A DNA stretch of 64,000 nucleotides from assembly GCA_029243605.1 (NCBI GenBank), contig JAQWRT010000092.1, positions 1-64,000 on the forward strand, given 5' to 3'. A model generated the notes under the pieces. The model was not told where the DNA came from, searched no databases, and saw only the letters and a list, made by a program, of their open reading frames with translations. Made by a program: the position numbers and the translations under genes. Positions within the stretch are counted from its first letter, which is position 1, and each line of letters starts with the position of its first letter. Origin of the DNA: Myxococcota bacterium. GTDB lineage: Bacteria; Myxococcota_A; UBA9160; UBA4427. Shown here in pieces: positions 8,327 through 26,978 of the stretch.

Positions 8327-9415
8327 TCAGATAGAAGAGCCGGCTGGATTCCGGGGCAGGTGATCGAAGACAGCCTGGGGTCGGGTTCGACGGTATTCGT
8401 CGAGGATCGGCTCGAGTTGCTCGGGGCTGGCTCCATGCAGAATGACTCCGTCGCATCCCAGCTCGAATTGCCCACGAATCGCGTCGACGCATTGGGCAGG
8501 GCTCCCCTGAGCGGCAGGAGCCAACCATTCTTCGGGAAGAAGGGTGGCCACGTGCTCGAGTTCCTCGGGGGTGGCCGTCATGTCCAGACCCCCTCGAAAA
8601 TTCTGGACAAAATCATCGGCCCTGAATCGGTCGAGCACCGATTTGTCCCAGCCATTGGTTTTGACCATGAGGTCTCCATAGCCCTGAAGATAAGTTGCCA
8701 GACGCCCCACGGTCTTCTTGAGCCGCAACTCCTCGGGAAGATGGTCGCCGATGGTTGCAAAGCAGGACCAGACCCGGACGCTACCTGGATCTCGGCCAGC
8801 TTTCTCCGCGGCCCGCTTGATCGCCTTGACACAGCGTGCGGTGGTCTCGTCGCTGAAGAAGGTATGGAGGACAACGGCATCGAAAACCCGACCGCCGAGA
8901 TCCAGGGAATTGGGACCGAAAGCGGTAAAAGTCAGGGGGATCGCCGCATCGTATTGGGGCCCCATGCTGAGCAAGGGATATTTTCCGGCGGGTCCATCGT
9001 GGCCGACCACGAGCTCGCCCCTCCAGATTTTCCGCATGAGGGAGACGAAGTCCTCGATCTGAGCGGTCTTGATCGGATCGATTCCGTAGGCACGGAACAT
9101 GGGGGCGATCCCCCTGCCCAGGCCAAGAGAAAAACGCCCCTCGGTCAGGGTGTGCATGCTCATGGCCATTGCGGCGGTGACCATGGGGTGCCGGGTCGAG
9201 TGGTTGGTGGCGGCGGTGGCGATGCCAATTTCGCTCGAAACGGCACCGACCGCGCCTGAAAGCACCGCGGCTTCCTTGATATTGAAGCGCTCAGAAATGA
9301 AGCAGGAGCCGATTCCCATGGCCTCGGCGGCTTTGACCTCATCGAGCAACTCTCGGGGGCTCTCGGGTTGGCCGGCAAGGGTATAGAAGCCGAGCTCGTT
9401 CATGGATTGAGGCAA
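8327..9415 (-). CDS. LLM class F420-dependent oxidoreductase
   Basis: LLM-type N-terminus MNELGFYTLAGQPESPRELLDEVKAAEAMGIGSCFISERFNIKEAAVLSGA…LTEGRFSLGLGRG. Confidence 0.85.
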   Translation of the reverse strand: MPQSMNELGFYTLAGQPESPRELLDEVKAAEAMGIGSCFISERFNIKEAAVLSGAVGAVSSEIGIATAATNHSTRHPMVTAAMAMSMHTLTEGRFSLGLGRGIAPMFRAYGIDPIKTAQIEDFVSLMRKIWRGELVVGHDGPAGKYPLLSMGPQYDAAIPLTFTAFGPNSLDLGGRVFDAVVLHTFFSDETTARCVKAIKRAAEKAGRDPGSVRVWSCFATIGDHLPEELRLKKTVGRLATYLQGYGDLMVKTNGWDKSVLDRFRADDFVQNFRGGLDMTATPEELEHVATLLPEEWLAPAAQGSPAQCVDAIRGQFELGCDGVILHGASPEQLEPILDEYRRTRPQAVFDHLPRNPAGSSI

Positions 9416-9543
9416 GACTTGGCTCCTTTAAGAACAAAGAGAAACGGGACTCTTGGGCTGCCTCGGCTTCTTTTTCGCTCTCGAAGGGGCAAGCTGTGAA
9501 TTTCGGCTAGAAGCTAGAGTCGATCGGCCGCGGCCTCTTTGCG

Positions 9544-10488
9544 TCAGGCAATTCGAAAATGACTGGCCTGGGTATCCTCTGCGCCCAGGTCAGTAAAGTT
9601 GTCGTCGATGCGAGCTTGGATGAACTCTTTCCAGGTAAATGGCCTGTAGTGGGGGGCGGAATCGCCGATTCCCGGAATCGGTTGGATAGTCGCGTCTAGC
9701 GGCGGGTTGTAGAAGTAGGGAATGCTGTAGCGGGCCTTTTCTGTCATGGGGACCACTCGATGAACCGAAGCGCGGTAGCGATCGTTCGTCCACACCTGAA
9801 GCGAGTCGGCAAGATTTACGACGATCGTGCCCTCGATGGCTGGAATATCGACCCAGCCATGAGTGCGCGAGTGGGTCTGCAGCCCGCCTGTTTGATCCTG
9901 GAGGAGCAGGGTCAGAACGCCCGGATCCGTGTGGTGCCCCAGGGCAGTTTTGCCCAGGCCCGGAAGAGTGCCTCGCTCGGTTTGGGGAACCGGATCCTCG
10001 ACGGGGTAGTAGTTGAGACGAACCGTGCTGGTCTTCGCGCTCCCAGGGTAGGTACTCGCGGTGTCACTCCCCGAGCCTAGAGCCGTGTGAACGAGATGCA
10101 GGGTTTTCTCCGCGAGTTCAGAGAAAGCTTTGAAATATTCGTTCTGGAATTCCTTGAAGCCCGGGAGAGCACTGGGCCAGCGGTTTCGCGACTCGCCGAT
10201 TGAGCCTCCAGGGTGCATGTAGTCGAAGACTTCCTTGCAGTCCCGGTCTTGCTTGGTCAGCTCTCGATCGAACCAGCCCAGGGGCCTGTCCTCTGTTCGG
10301 CGTATTTTCTCCTTGATTTCAGAAGGCGCCGAAAAGAAGCGGCGAGTTTCCTGCCAGTTTCGTTCGATCATCGCATCGAGCCCATGGCCCCGGATCAGAA
10401 AAAATCCGTGATCGCTGCAGGCAGAATCCACGGCATTCAAGTCTGCCGCGCTGGGTTGACCGATATCGACTGTGGGCACGAGATCCAT
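9544..10488 (-). CDS. 2-oxoglutarate/Fe(II)-dependent oxygenase (isopenicillin N synthase-like)
   Basis: VPTVDIGQPSAADLNAVDSACSDHGFFLIRGHG, GHHTDPGVLTLLLQD…VNLADSLQVWTNDRYRASVHRV. Start moved to ATG 10488 because the ORF-track start overlaps the upstream gene. Confidence 0.9.
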   Translation of the reverse strand: MDLVPTVDIGQPSAADLNAVDSACSDHGFFLIRGHGLDAMIERNWQETRRFFSAPSEIKEKIRRTEDRPLGWFDRELTKQDRDCKEVFDYMHPGGSIGESRNRWPSALPGFKEFQNEYFKAFSELAEKTLHLVHTALGSGSDTASTYPGSAKTSTVRLNYYPVEDPVPQTERGTLPGLGKTALGHHTDPGVLTLLLQDQTGGLQTHSRTHGWVDIPAIEGTIVVNLADSLQVWTNDRYRASVHRVVPMTEKARYSIPYFYNPPLDATIQPIPGIGDSAPHYRPFTWKEFIQARIDDNFTDLGAEDTQASHFRIA

Positions 10489-10553
10489 GCTGTGAGCGTG
10501 CCACAGCCGGCTTGGCTGCGCACGGGTCTCGAGTGCCGGCCGCCAGAGTGGTC

Positions 10554-12023
10554 TCAGGGGTGAGGTGATTCCGAAACCACGTAGGACTCGTCGTCGGCCG
10601 CTTCGAGTTGCTGCTTGAGTTCGCTCATACGGTGCGGCCACTGGGTGACCACCCGGCCGCTCGCTGAACGATAATAGTCACCACAATTGGACTGCCAGGG
10701 AGCGATTGCTCGAATGTCTTCTTGGAGTTTTTCGTTATAAGCCGCCATGCTTTCAGCGCGTACATCGATCGCTGCGGAACCCTGGTCGATGAGCCGGCGT
10801 ATCTGTCGAACCGCGAACTCGACTTCGTACTCGATGGTCGTGATAATCGAATCTCCGTTGGTATTGGGGCCATAGAGCATGAAAAGGTTTGGAAACCCCG
10901 AGGTCATCACTCCCTTGTAGGCCAGAGCACCATCGCGCCAGGCTTCCTCAAGACGCACCCCCTGACGCCCAGACACCTCGATGGCCGAAAGGAAAAGAGT
11001 CGTCTGGAATCCGGTGGCAAGAACGAGCACATCGACTTTTCGCTGCTTCCCGTCGACCATAACGACCGCATCCCGCGAAATTCTATCGATGGGATCGGTG
11101 ACGAGCTCGAGATTGGGACGGTTGAAGGCGGGGTAATAGTGGTTCGAGAGGAGGGGCCGCTTGCAGCCCCAGGGGTGATCGGGGAGGAGCTTCTTCCGGA
11201 GTTCAGGGCTCTCGACCAAGTCTAGATTGGTGAGGCAGGCCGCCTCCATTTCCTCGCGGATGGCTTCAAAGGCTCCCGCTCCCCCGGCATCCGTCACATT
11301 GTGAATTTCTTCTCGGGCCCCTCGCGGCGCATTGGGATCGCTTTTGAAATATTCAAGTTGCTCGGGGGGGAAAGGTGCATCTTCTTTGGGAAGAACCCAG
11401 TTGGCTGTTCGCTGGAAGAGATCAACCGATGCAGCGGTTTTTGCGATCTCTGGAACGAACTGCACAGCGCTGGCAGCGCTTCCAATGACGGCGATTTTTT
11501 TATTTTTGAGATCGTAATTCCAATCCCAACGCGCCGAATGAAAGCGGGCGCCCTGAAAATCATCGAGACCCGGAATATCGGGGTAGTTGAGTTCATTGAA
11601 CATCCCGAGGGCGCTGATCAAGAACTGCGAATCAATAATGCCTCCAGACGCGAGCCTGGTTTCCCAGCGCTTCATTGAATCGTCCCATCTTGCTCCAATG
11701 ACGGAGTCGTCGAATCGACAATGTTCGAGAAGGCCGTATTTCTCCGCGCAATGTTCGAAGTAGGCGAGAATTTCGGGTTGGGGCGGATAAAGTCCAGACC
11801 ATTCGGGATTTAACTCGAAGGAATATGAATAGAGAGGCGCCGGTATGTCGCAGGCACAGCCGGGATAGCGGTTGTGGTTCCAGGTCCCGCCGACGCCGCT
11901 ACTTTTTTCGAGGATTACGAAGTCCTCGATTCCCGCTTGCTTGAGGCGGATCGCCATGCAGAGGCCGCCGGGGCCGGCACCGATAATCGCCACTCGGAAA
12001 GGCTGGTTAGCATTGCTCGTCAT
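10554..12023 (-). CDS. FAD-dependent flavin monooxygenase (Baeyer-Villiger-like)
   Basis: GAGPGGLCMAIRLKQAG, SSGVGGTWNHNRYPGCACDIPAPLYSYSF, second dinucleotide motif VIGSAASAVQ. Confidence 0.92.
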   Translation of the reverse strand: MTSNANQPFRVAIIGAGPGGLCMAIRLKQAGIEDFVILEKSSGVGGTWNHNRYPGCACDIPAPLYSYSFELNPEWSGLYPPQPEILAYFEHCAEKYGLLEHCRFDDSVIGARWDDSMKRWETRLASGGIIDSQFLISALGMFNELNYPDIPGLDDFQGARFHSARWDWNYDLKNKKIAVIGSAASAVQFVPEIAKTAASVDLFQRTANWVLPKEDAPFPPEQLEYFKSDPNAPRGAREEIHNVTDAGGAGAFEAIREEMEAACLTNLDLVESPELRKKLLPDHPWGCKRPLLSNHYYPAFNRPNLELVTDPIDRISRDAVVMVDGKQRKVDVLVLATGFQTTLFLSAIEVSGRQGVRLEEAWRDGALAYKGVMTSGFPNLFMLYGPNTNGDSIITTIEYEVEFAVRQIRRLIDQGSAAIDVRAESMAAYNEKLQEDIRAIAPWQSNCGDYYRSASGRVVTQWPHRMSELKQQLEAADDESYVVSESPHP

Positions 12024-12049: not shown

Positions 12050-13033
12050 CTAGCGGCTTTGAGATTCTATTGGCTCGTCTAGGGTGGCGAGCATCATGTC
12101 GGCTTCACCCTGTAGGACGACCTCTTCTCTTTGGTTCAGAATTTGGAGTCCGAAGGTGGTGACCGCAAGGTGGGGCCGGCTTCGGGTGCGGCGCGCGTTC
12201 AGCGGGCGGTGCCGCAGTTCAAGAGTGTCGCCGGCGAATACGGGGGCAACGACTTGCCAGCGGTCTCCCAGGTGCCCGGCCTCGGAAGGAATCCCAGGCA
12301 TGGGGAGCTTCATTAATTCGCTCAGCCAGACGGAAAATCCGAGAGAAAAAGAGAGCATGGGAGAGGCCGTGGTGGAACCGAAGATCGCTTTTTTCGAAAA
12401 TTCGGCATCAAGAGAAAGAGGATTTGGATCGCCGCTGAAATTGGCGAAATTGACGATATCCGTTTCTGTGATCGATCGTATGGGGAGTGAGCCCCGAGGA
12501 CCCAATTCGACCATTTCCTCCGCTCCCAGGGCGCGCGATGAAGAGGGCGGTGGGGACTTTTCCAGGGGCCAGGATTGCGTTAAATCAGCCTTCCATGGGC
12601 TCGGGCTGGTTCCCACAGGGCGCTTTCGAATACCCAGGCTTCCCATGGCACTGACCGCGCCCCGTTGGTTCGCCAGGGAAAAATTCAATTGCCTTGTCTC
12701 CCCGTCTTTCTGCAAATCAGAAGGGCCGACTTCTTGGCAGGCAAAGGCGAGCGTGTCTCCAAAGCGAACGGGTGAATGAAAGCGAATCGAAAAATTTGAG
12801 ACGTAGCTGTCCGGGTCGGCGCGGCCGATGAGGTCTCCCGCACACCGGGTCATAGACCCCAGGGCCCAGCTCGCCGAAAGGAGACCGTGCGCAAAGCCCG
12901 TGCCGAGGGGCGAGCTGGCGCCGAAGTGTTGATCGACGTGGATACGAGAGAAGTCCCCGGTGAGGGAGGCGAAAGTGGCGACCGCCTCCGCGGTCACCGT
13001 ACGGTGTCCGAACCATTCGGCCTGATCTTTCAT
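12050..13033 (-). CDS. MaoC-like dehydratase / double hot-dog protein
   Basis: FASLTGDFSRIHVDQHFGASSPLGTGFAHGLLSASW and a second hot-dog half FANFSGDPNPLSLDAEFSKKAIFG. Confidence 0.85.
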   Translation of the reverse strand: MKDQAEWFGHRTVTAEAVATFASLTGDFSRIHVDQHFGASSPLGTGFAHGLLSASWALGSMTRCAGDLIGRADPDSYVSNFSIRFHSPVRFGDTLAFACQEVGPSDLQKDGETRQLNFSLANQRGAVSAMGSLGIRKRPVGTSPSPWKADLTQSWPLEKSPPPSSSRALGAEEMVELGPRGSLPIRSITETDIVNFANFSGDPNPLSLDAEFSKKAIFGSTTASPMLSFSLGFSVWLSELMKLPMPGIPSEAGHLGDRWQVVAPVFAGDTLELRHRPLNARRTRSRPHLAVTTFGLQILNQREEVVLQGEADMMLATLDEPIESQSR

Positions 13034-13128
13034 GTCCGCTCTCTCATGTCCGCTCTCTCATGTCTGCTCTCTCGTGTCCGCTCTCTCATGTCCATTCTCT
13101 CCTGTTCAGTCTTTCATGCCGGGTCTTT
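13031..13128 (-). repeat. Tandem repeat of 14 bp x 7 decaying copies (minus strand AGAGAGCGGACATG)
   Basis: + strand copies: catgtccgctctct x2, catgtctgctctct, cgtgtccgctctct, catgtccattctct, cctgttcagtcttt, catgccgggtcttt. Confidence 0.95.
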
Positions 13129-13305
13129 CGTGGAAGACGCCCAATTGGGTCCGGGTGGAGTCGAGGAGAGATGCCCCCGTTTTTGATACCCTGCAAGAGT
13201 ATCAACTCCGAGCCGATAATTCGGCATGGAAGCGGGCAGGGGGCTCTCCCGAAATTTTCGGCCAAGAGCTTCCACCCAACGCAATATGCGGAGATTGTAT
13301 TCCGA

Positions 13306-14535
13306 ATGATACGCGCCCCTTCAGCACCGGGTCGGCCCGCCGAGCTCCTCGAAGCGTCCACTATCGAGGATCCCCATCCCTTTTTGAGGCGAGTCCGAGA
13401 GGCGGGCCCCATCTCGCGTCTGGGCGAAACGGGTGTTCATCTGATCGCGGATTGGGAGGGGATTCTTGAGGTTCTTGACCGCGAAGAGGATTTCTCAGCC
13501 AACCTGACAGGCGTTTTGGTGCGGGCCCAGCAAGACCAGGTCGGGGTCTTCGAGCTTCCGGCGGGCGAGGGCACCCAGGTGATCGCGACGGCAGACGAGC
13601 CTCGGCACGCCGTACACAGGCGCTTGCTCAAACCCGGGATGTCCTCCCGGGGAATGGCCGCCCTGGAGCCCATGATGCGTGATTGGGCCCGGGAGGCGAT
13701 TCGCGATTGGTTGCGTTCGGGCGCAGTCGATTTTGCTCCCGTCGCCGAGATTCTTCCTGCCCGGGTGGTGGGTCACCTACTCGGCTTGCCCCCGGGCGAT
13801 GTCGAGCGTCACCGGGAGTGGGCTCTGGTTGGGGGCGAGATCCTGGCCGGCGATATTTCGGCCGAAAAGTTGGAAAAGCTCGCTCGCGATACGGGCGCGA
13901 TGGCCGAGTATCTGGCCGCTCACCTCGAGATCGCTGGTCGATCGCCGGCACGGGATGATCTGCTGAGTGGCTTGGCTGCCGGGGTCAAAGCGGGCCGGGT
14001 GACGAGCTCCGAGGCGACGGGGATCGCCCTCGTGCTCTTCGGAGCCGGCGGAGAATCGACCACCGCTCTGATTGGCTCCTGCATGAGGTTGCTGGCCGCA
14101 GACCCTGGGCTGTGCGAGAGGCTGAGGAAGGATAGGGGTCTGGTGCCGCGTTTCGTCGAAGAAGTTCTCCGCCTAGAGCCCCCCTTCAAGTTCCATTACC
14201 GCGCGGTGCGTCGGGAGTGCGAACTCATGGGCTATTTCCTCGAGCCTGGCGATCGGCTGATGCTGCTCTGGGCCGCGGCGAATCGCGACCCCGAACTTTT
14301 CGAGGACCCAGATCGAATCCGCTTGGACAGGAAATACCCGAAGCATCACCTGAGTTTCGGCCGGGGAGCGCATTTTTGCCTGGGTGAGCAGGTCGCCCGG
14401 TTGGAGGTGCGAGTGATGCTGGAAGAGGTCCTGAAGGCGACGCGCGAATTCTCCCTGGATCCCGCGTCTCCTCCGGTTCACACTCGGAGCATCTTTGTTC
14501 GACGCCTGGAGAAGCTGCCGATCCAGCTGGGCTGA
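13306..14535 (+). CDS. Cytochrome P450
   Basis: Heme motif FGRGAHFCLGEQVARLE, ExxR in EEVLRLEPP, I-helix GAGGESTT. ATG 13306 preferred because the longer ORF runs into the 14-bp repeat. Confidence 0.92.
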   Translation: MIRAPSAPGRPAELLEASTIEDPHPFLRRVREAGPISRLGETGVHLIADWEGILEVLDREEDFSANLTGVLVRAQQDQVGVFELPAGEGTQVIATADEPRHAVHRRLLKPGMSSRGMAALEPMMRDWAREAIRDWLRSGAVDFAPVAEILPARVVGHLLGLPPGDVERHREWALVGGEILAGDISAEKLEKLARDTGAMAEYLAAHLEIAGRSPARDDLLSGLAAGVKAGRVTSSEATGIALVLFGAGGESTTALIGSCMRLLAADPGLCERLRKDRGLVPRFVEEVLRLEPPFKFHYRAVRRECELMGYFLEPGDRLMLLWAAANRDPELFEDPDRIRLDRKYPKHHLSFGRGAHFCLGEQVARLEVRVMLEEVLKATREFSLDPASPPVHTRSIFVRRLEKLPIQLG

Positions 14536-24980: not shown

Positions 24981-26978
24981 CTACTTGCCGAGACCCATCA
25001 GGCGGGCGAGTGGGCGGAAGAGGCGGGTGAGGCCCGCCTTCCGCAGTCCCAGGCCGAGGTAGCGAAAGGGCAGCGTGATTCGCCAGCTCACGGACCTTTC
25101 GAAGGAGTGAATGGCTCGATCCCGTTCCTGCAACTCCTCCCGGAGTCGTTGTTGATCGCTGCCCAAATGGGAGACCCGTTCCTCGAGGGTCTTGTTTTCT
25201 CGATCCCGAGCTTCAAGTTCACGGTTGGTCTCGAGAAGGTTTGCGTCGATTCGCTGTAGTTTTTCTTCGAGTTCTTGGCGGCGGGTGAGTTGAGTTTGGA
25301 GTCCACGGTTGGCTTCGAGGAGGTTCTCGTTGCTTCCCTGTAGATTCTGTTCGAGTTCTTGACTGCGAGCGAGTTGGGTCTGGAACTGCTCTTTCAGCTC
25401 GTTCGATGTTCGCTCAAGCCTGTCTTCCGAAGCGCTCAAGTTTTTGCGCAGATCGGCATCACTCTTTTCGGCCAAAGCCAACTCGTCGAAGCCCTCTTCC
25501 ACGAGTTGTTGCTTCTCCGCGACTTGGGTTGCCAGCAGCTTGATTCGATCCTCGCATGCCTTGTTTTCGTCTTTTAGAACCTCATTTTCTCTCTGGGCAT
25601 CCAAAAGCTCGATACGGTGCTGTCCTTCATCTCTCGCTTTTTCGCGGCTCTCCGGATTTGCTGGGCCTAGGGGTGCTCGTCCGATTCCTCGCCGCTGGGG
25701 ATGCACGCCCTGGGTCTCAGCCCGGAAGTCGTTTGAATCCTGATAGCGCTTGAGCCCTTCCATCGCGGTTTGCGCGATGGAAGATGAATCCGATGTGTCC
25801 ATCGCCGTCAGCAGAAGTTCGAGCTCCTCGCTTGAGGAATTGCTCCCGGGGGCGCGACTGGCGATCCAGATAAGCATGAGCTTGATGCAATCGATCAACT
25901 CCGCGACCTGATTTTCCTTTGCTTCAAGGCGGACCTGTACCCTCCCCGACTCATCATTGAGCGGGACAAGGCTGGCCTCGAGTTGATCACGCTCGTCGGT
26001 AAGTTCGCTGATCGCTTTGCTCATCTCTTGGGTAGTAGCGTTTGAGTCTTCTCTTGCGACTTGCATATGGGCAAGAACCGGACCGAATGCCTTCTCTGCT
26101 TCGGCGAAAGCCAGCCGCAACTGATCGATTTCGGAAGCGGGCTGAGGGTTGCCCGCGATGGCCATACTCATCCAGTCAAACGTGGTCTTGGCCCAGCTCA
26201 AGAGGTCTCCACGGGCACGAAACTCCTCAGCAGAGACGGAGTGATTGCGCAGGTGGACATCGAGAAAAGAATCGATCTCGACGGAAGAGCGCCGGCCCAG
26301 GCGAGGGAAGGTAATCGAGAGGTCGCTGCTGACCTTTTCGACTACGCCGCGCCAGTTGGCCAGGAGTGCTTCGTAGTCAACGAAGCACCTTGGGTATCCG
26401 CGCGAGTCGTACTCGGCTTGGAGAACACCGTTGAGCCAGAGAAGAAGGCCATGTTGTGGATCGAGGCCTTCTGCTTTTTCGAGAGAGCCGGCGACTTCCA
26501 TTGGATTACGGATGGGAAGAACAAAGTGAGGAAGGATTTCCATTTTCTCGAGGACGGCGAGCCAGAAGGGGATTAGCCGGCAGATTCTTGGGTCTTTGAC
26601 GATGAAGAGAGAGGCGTCTCCATACTCGCTAGCCACGAGATCGACCATCTTGTCGACATAGTTCGCGGCCATGGAAGAACTCATCCACCCATTGGGAAGA
26701 GGGGCAAGATCATGCCAGGACGACCCAAGCTCCCCGAGGAGTTCCTCGTGCAGCTCAAAGATCCGTTGAGACTCGAAGAAGCCACGCGGATTGATTGCAG
26801 TGGGCTGCATTAGGGTTTCGGGCATACTGGCCCCGCATAGTCCCAATACTTGGGTTAGCGCCGAAGTACCACTCCGGTGCACCCCTAAAACGAGGATGGC
26901 ATGAGACCTCCCGACCCCGGTCGAATCGGGCCTGGGGGTCGGTTCGACTCGCTTGTTCACGGTCTCGTCTGAGTCCAT
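24981..26978 (-). CDS. Sulfotransferase-family protein with long coiled coil and C-terminal SxSWRxTxPxR motif
   Basis: PAPS-type loop VLGVHRSGTSALTQVLGLCGA, FIVKDPRICRLIPFW; coiled coil; C-terminus SVSWRITLPFRYLGLGLRK. Confidence 0.82.
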   Translation of the reverse strand: MDSDETVNKRVEPTPRPDSTGVGRSHAILVLGVHRSGTSALTQVLGLCGASMPETLMQPTAINPRGFFESQRIFELHEELLGELGSSWHDLAPLPNGWMSSSMAANYVDKMVDLVASEYGDASLFIVKDPRICRLIPFWLAVLEKMEILPHFVLPIRNPMEVAGSLEKAEGLDPQHGLLLWLNGVLQAEYDSRGYPRCFVDYEALLANWRGVVEKVSSDLSITFPRLGRRSSVEIDSFLDVHLRNHSVSAEEFRARGDLLSWAKTTFDWMSMAIAGNPQPASEIDQLRLAFAEAEKAFGPVLAHMQVAREDSNATTQEMSKAISELTDERDQLEASLVPLNDESGRVQVRLEAKENQVAELIDCIKLMLIWIASRAPGSNSSSEELELLLTAMDTSDSSSIAQTAMEGLKRYQDSNDFRAETQGVHPQRRGIGRAPLGPANPESREKARDEGQHRIELLDAQRENEVLKDENKACEDRIKLLATQVAEKQQLVEEGFDELALAEKSDADLRKNLSASEDRLERTSNELKEQFQTQLARSQELEQNLQGSNENLLEANRGLQTQLTRRQELEEKLQRIDANLLETNRELEARDRENKTLEERVSHLGSDQQRLREELQERDRAIHSFERSVSWRITLPFRYLGLGLRKAGLTRLFRPLARLMGLGK
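25220..25390 (-). repeat. Approximate 84-bp direct repeat (2 copies, 28 aa) in the coiled-coil coding region
   Basis: FQTQLARSQELEQNLQGSNENLLEANRG / LQTQLTRRQELEEKLQRIDANLLETNRE. Confidence 0.7.

Follow-up and report, generated by a model that had tools for sequence, protein, structure and literature searches.

Results

A 14-bp tandem array lies directly upstream of a MaoC-like gene

The stretch of DNA analysed here, called the window below, is 64 kb long (64,000 nucleotides) and comes from a Myxococcota bacterium. It carries on the minus strand a MaoC-like dehydratase gene (PF01575, PF13452; positions 12050-13033), downstream of which come genes for a BVMO-like flavin monooxygenase, a 2OG-Fe(II) oxygenase and a luciferase-like monooxygenase (8327-12023, minus strand). 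A divergent cytochrome P450 gene is found on the plus strand (13306-14535), its start being placed by orthologues at about 13306. Directly 5′ of the MaoC start, on the minus strand, TRF detects a tandem array of period 14 bp (13026-13105, 5.7 copies, 87% matches, score 118). The 14-bp repeat that the initial annotation had placed before the MaoC gene was thus confirmed, in sequence and coordinates. Its head-to-tail copies stand well above chance, as in a minisatellite or VNTR: the best TRF score in 60 dinucleotide-preserving shuffles of the 64-kb window was 67, versus 118 for the array.

When the register is set by the MaoC ATG (13033), sequence and TRF together lay out seven upstream 14-bp units (13034-13131, minus strand), the two most distal of which are degenerate, and the MaoC start forms the eighth unit. 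From upstream to downstream, the units read ACGAAAGACCCGGC, ATGAAAGACTGAAC, AGGAGAGAATGGAC, ATGAGAGAGCGGAC, ACGAGAGAGCAGAC, ATGAGAGAGCGGAC and ATGAGAGAGCGGAC, then ATGAAAGATCAGGC at the MaoC start. Each unit had been described as an AGAGAG stretch about 5 nt before an ATG: the stretch is indeed present, but an in-register ATG is retained in only 4 of the 7 upstream units (at 13117, 13089, 13061 and 13047). One more ATG, off register, occurs at 13095. Genome-wide pattern searches found no other array of this unit, merely isolated matches with 3 mismatches.

Copy number differs by whole units in a sister species

The sole near relative found was a sister Myxococcota species of the same genus, represented by a metagenome-assembled genome (isolate ANT-51, JAPKBZ010000074.1). 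Its MaoC is 83% identical to that of the window, and the gene order P450 / MaoC / flavin monooxygenase / 2OG oxygenase / luciferase-like monooxygenase is conserved. The array is present, with upstream units ATGAAAGACCAGAG, ACGAAAGACCGGAG and ATGAAAAACCAGAG, then the CDS ATGAAAGACCAGAC. This makes 3 upstream units, exactly 4 fewer than the 7 of the window; since both assemblies are draft, metagenomic or similar, assembly may have influenced the precise counts. In the alignment of the two intergenic regions, the sister array is shorter by a net 56 bp (4 units), and a single-base gap is found in addition. The initial annotation had proposed a comparison of copy number across related genomes, and it turns out not to be constant (7 versus 3): the difference is one of whole units, as expected of a VNTR, and lies between species. 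The array is known in these two genomes only, one per species. It was not found upstream of MaoC in 12 more distant homologues, and a search for the intergenic region in three other genomes of the genus gave no match, the P450 orthologue being retained there at 63-67% identity.

The sister units differ by 1, 3 and 2 mismatches from the start of their own CDS (11-13 of 14 nt identical), and by 4-5 nt from the ATGAGAGAGCGGAC units of the window. The three ATGAGAGAGCGGAC units of the window are identical to each other, so that units resemble each other more within a species than between species. Given the close match between the sister units and the sister's own MaoC start, we conclude that the start region of MaoC gave rise to the array, an origin already suspected from the window, where the probable source is the opening 14 nt of the coding sequence (13020-13033, minus strand). 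The simplest reading of these sequences is that the array would have been seeded by the gene start, and would then have undergone concerted evolution within each species.

In the sister genome (L007:4694-4736), where one ATGA has been lost, the array's most distal ATG shares the reading frame of MaoC, and no stop intervenes. This ATG could add 14 residues to MaoC, and automatic annotation may overcall the protein by that length.

Most decoy ORFs terminate at a start codon further downstream

All window units with an in-register ATG read ATGA, i.e. a start codon and a TGA stop together, a feature overlooked in the initial annotation. Because the period is 14 nt (3n−1), ATGA puts the TGA in frame, and the decoy ORFs opened by these ATG, all on the minus strand, terminate with one exception at the start codon of a unit further downstream. 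A first decoy, M-R-E-R-T-stop (13030-13047), has its TGA overlapping the MaoC ATG as ATGA, and a second one of the same sequence (13044-13061) overlaps the ATG of the next unit. A longer decoy, MRERTRESRHERADMRERT-stop (13030-13089), exists because one unit has an ACG and is read through; it also ends on the MaoC ATGA. Only the distal decoy, M-K-D-stop (13106-13117), has a TGA of its own and does not end on a start codon. An upstream stop therefore overlaps a downstream ATG at MaoC (13047-13030 and 13089-13030) and at the next unit (13061-13044), and overlaps of this kind couple translation by termination-reinitiation in bacteria and archaea (PMC6728339). When 1 to 8 ideal units were computed, each decoy ended on the next start, and the last decoy on the CDS. 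This chained geometry arises automatically from a 14-bp unit with ATGA, and is therefore no proof of selection.

A frame switch, as in phase-variable contingency loci, was not found: whatever the copy number, the last unit contains the ATG of the CDS itself. Gain or loss of whole units leaves the MaoC frame unchanged, which means that an on/off switch is not expected, and at most a tuning. It had been argued that, 14 not being a multiple of 3, successive ATG fall in different frames and only every third shares that of the gene. This argument was incomplete, as the decoys end on a later unit's start, and the MaoC frame is independent of copy number. One could go further and propose a self-chaining leader, in which decoy mini-ORFs would relay ribosomes to MaoC and copy number would adjust the output of the operon in a graded, frame-safe way; we consider this highly improbable.

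The unit as a ribosome-binding and start module

The reading initially put forward was that the unit is a duplicated ribosome-binding/start module, whose decoys would draw off ribosomes or fall in another frame as the copy number changes. The AGAGAG stretch about 5 nt before the ATG, and the presence of this ATG in 4 of the 7 upstream units, speak in its favour. Iteration of such a module would conserve both its SD-like part and its ATG over the copies. Among the ten upstream units of the two species, a number that gives little power to column conservation, the T of ATG is kept in 6, which places it among the least conserved columns; ATG is lost in 4, and the purine scaffold AnGAnAGA is kept in 9-10. 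Against the 16S anti-SD, taken as the usual bacterial sequence (this genome's own may differ), the unit is predicted to pair at −7.2 kcal/mol, with an interrupted helix. This value is equalled or bettered at 33% of unambiguous starts (n = 169) and at 21% of random sites (n = 1,220). With pairing that looks ordinary, an ATG that variable, and decoys that end on a later start codon and leave the CDS frame independent of copy number, a duplicated module is very unlikely. What stands of the initial interpretation is the origin in the start region and the copy-number difference; the case for a ribosome-binding module is weak. Retention of the array in both species, together with the kept purine scaffold, could mean selection.

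Leader, divergent region and palindrome

The predicted leader is less structured than all of 200 shuffles (z +2.48), which makes a modest effect on translation plausible; judging from the sequence, the effect of the array on the MaoC gene is probably modest. A sigma-70 promoter scan of the region found none, and an Rfam search of it gave no match up to E = 1. If transcription started inside or below the array, the array would not be in the mRNA, or not wholly.

The array had also been described as lying at the divergent promoter of the P450 gene. It does lie in the divergent intergenic region, but more than 170 bp from the P450 start, as orthologues place the latter at about 13306, and it adjoins MaoC only. 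An N-terminal extension of the P450 through the repeat (plus strand ORF, 13060-14535) was rejected: genus orthologues align only from about residue 83, no excess of third-position substitutions is seen upstream of 13306 (7, 11 and 3 of 40 at positions 3, 2 and 1), and the 1-nt gap between the sisters counts against it.

Since the array is located between divergent genes, with a fixed spacing that could suit a multimeric binder, its units might be DNA sites for a regulator of the MaoC/P450 promoters. However, a period of 14 bp does not correspond to a whole number of helical turns, coding sequence forms part of the array, and the unit has diverged as a whole between the sisters. A nearby palindrome of the same intergenic region, TTGATAC-N9-GTATCAA (TTGATACCCTGCAAGAGTATCAA, 13183-13205), has remained identical in the sister, within a longer identical stretch. 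For this reason the palindrome is a better operator candidate than the array, and we regard a regulator-binding role of the repeats as extremely unlikely. The palindrome itself is a likely operator, at the level of a candidate, for some regulator of the divergent genes. A search for a corresponding regulon found an exact match at this locus only in each of the two species, and few matches with 2 mismatches.

Other arrays in the genome

To place the MaoC array against its background, 1.25 Mb of the same genome, sampled in stretches and with mechanical gene calls, were scanned with TRF. Distinct arrays numbered 75 at a score of at least 50, 25 at a score of at least 80, and 9 at a score of at least 118. 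Of 30 intergenic arrays, 6 reach into the last 30 nt before a called start, with 6.3 expected by random intergenic placement. Start-proximal arrays are no commoner than chance.

Two such arrays were found at other genes of the same genome. One (L113:9374-9441) is a 13-bp array (CAACGTGAATCAA, 5.2 copies) whose end lies about 11 nt upstream of the ATG at which its gene probably starts; the sister shares it, with a different, homogenised unit, and it has diverged in concert. The other (L108:15764-15822) is a 14-bp array (TGGACCTGCCCTAC, 4.1 copies) located 22 nt upstream of a start, and is absent from the sister. It follows from these two arrays and the chance-level placement that turnover of start-proximal minisatellites between species is ordinary in this lineage. 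The top-scoring tandem repeat of the window is another one, an 84-bp tandem duplication (25216-25384, 2 copies, 78% matches).

These data bear on the possibility that the array is an expression rheostat, in which the number of purine-rich leader units, varying by slippage, would determine how much mRNA the MaoC operon yields or how strongly it is translated. The different copy numbers of the two sister species, the conserved AnGAnAGA scaffold and the unstructured leader agree with it, as do the precedents discussed below. But array density near starts is at the chance level, the comparable array at the L108 gene is absent from the sister, and metabolic oxygenase genes are, to our knowledge, not typical contingency targets. 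Altogether, a rheostat seems rather unlikely.

Discussion

The explanation that we prefer, with a probability of roughly 0.7, is a lineage-specific minisatellite, born by slippage from the MaoC start, frame-safe and tolerated, with at most a mild tuning of translation. Before the window species and its sister diverged, replication slippage or unequal exchange would have duplicated the first 14 nt of MaoC in tandem; expansion, contraction and homogenisation would then have proceeded separately in each species. A transcript starting upstream would carry a run of tiny ORFs, most of them closing on the start of a unit further downstream and, at the end of the run, on the MaoC start, so that ribosomes caught by a decoy would be handed on by termination-reinitiation and not lost. 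As the final unit would always supply the genuine MaoC start in the right frame, and most decoys would hand over to it, the array would be tolerated. A change of copy number by whole units would at most tune translation, through the unstructured, purine-rich leader.

Several known systems resemble the array in part. In Moraxella catarrhalis, AGAT repeats in the 5′ UTR of uspA2 have been mutated with an effect on expression (Attia and Hansen 2006, as reported in PMC4679880). According to the same report, this is also a purine-rich tandem repeat 5′ of a start codon, between promoter and start, and its copy number differs, in that case between strains; its unit, however, is of 4 bp and has no start codon, whereas the MaoC unit is of 14 bp, includes one, and is known from sequence alone. 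In Haemophilus influenzae, heptamer repeats in the 5′ UTR of the P2 transcript of hmw1A act on the expression of a surface adhesin (PMC8262952). As at MaoC, a non-triplet tandem repeat stands upstream of the start codon, but hmw1A has a known promoter and encodes a surface adhesin, whereas the MaoC array precedes a metabolic gene for which the sigma-70 scan found no promoter. These two cases are the precedents that favour a rheostat. The TAACTGA repeats of Beggiatoaceae (PMC4679880) are likewise short direct repeats immediately 5′ of start codons; there, one conserved heptamer is found at many genes, whereas the MaoC unit is specific to one gene, and its array occurs once in the genome. Finally, the decoys share with ATGA stop-start overlaps (PMC6728339) an upstream ORF whose stop overlaps the next ATG by 4 nt, but such overlaps are known for real gene pairs, whereas here they join tandem decoys of 5 codons or slightly more. 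A literature search for repeated start/SD modules, or for a repeat unit containing a start codon, gave no direct precedent within the part of the literature covered.

By its sequence, the array would be classed as a minisatellite, a known kind of repeat, with a mildly interesting geometry of chained ATG. It illustrates cleanly how a start codon can seed a minisatellite, and the sister genome reveals the source. It also leads to a prediction: a unit of 3n−1 nt with ATGA should do no harm however many copies are present, as every decoy ORF leads into the start that follows. Should expression turn out to be tuned by copy number, the array would act on a metabolic operon as a rheostat that is frame-safe, beyond the host-adapted pathogens where such repeats are best known.
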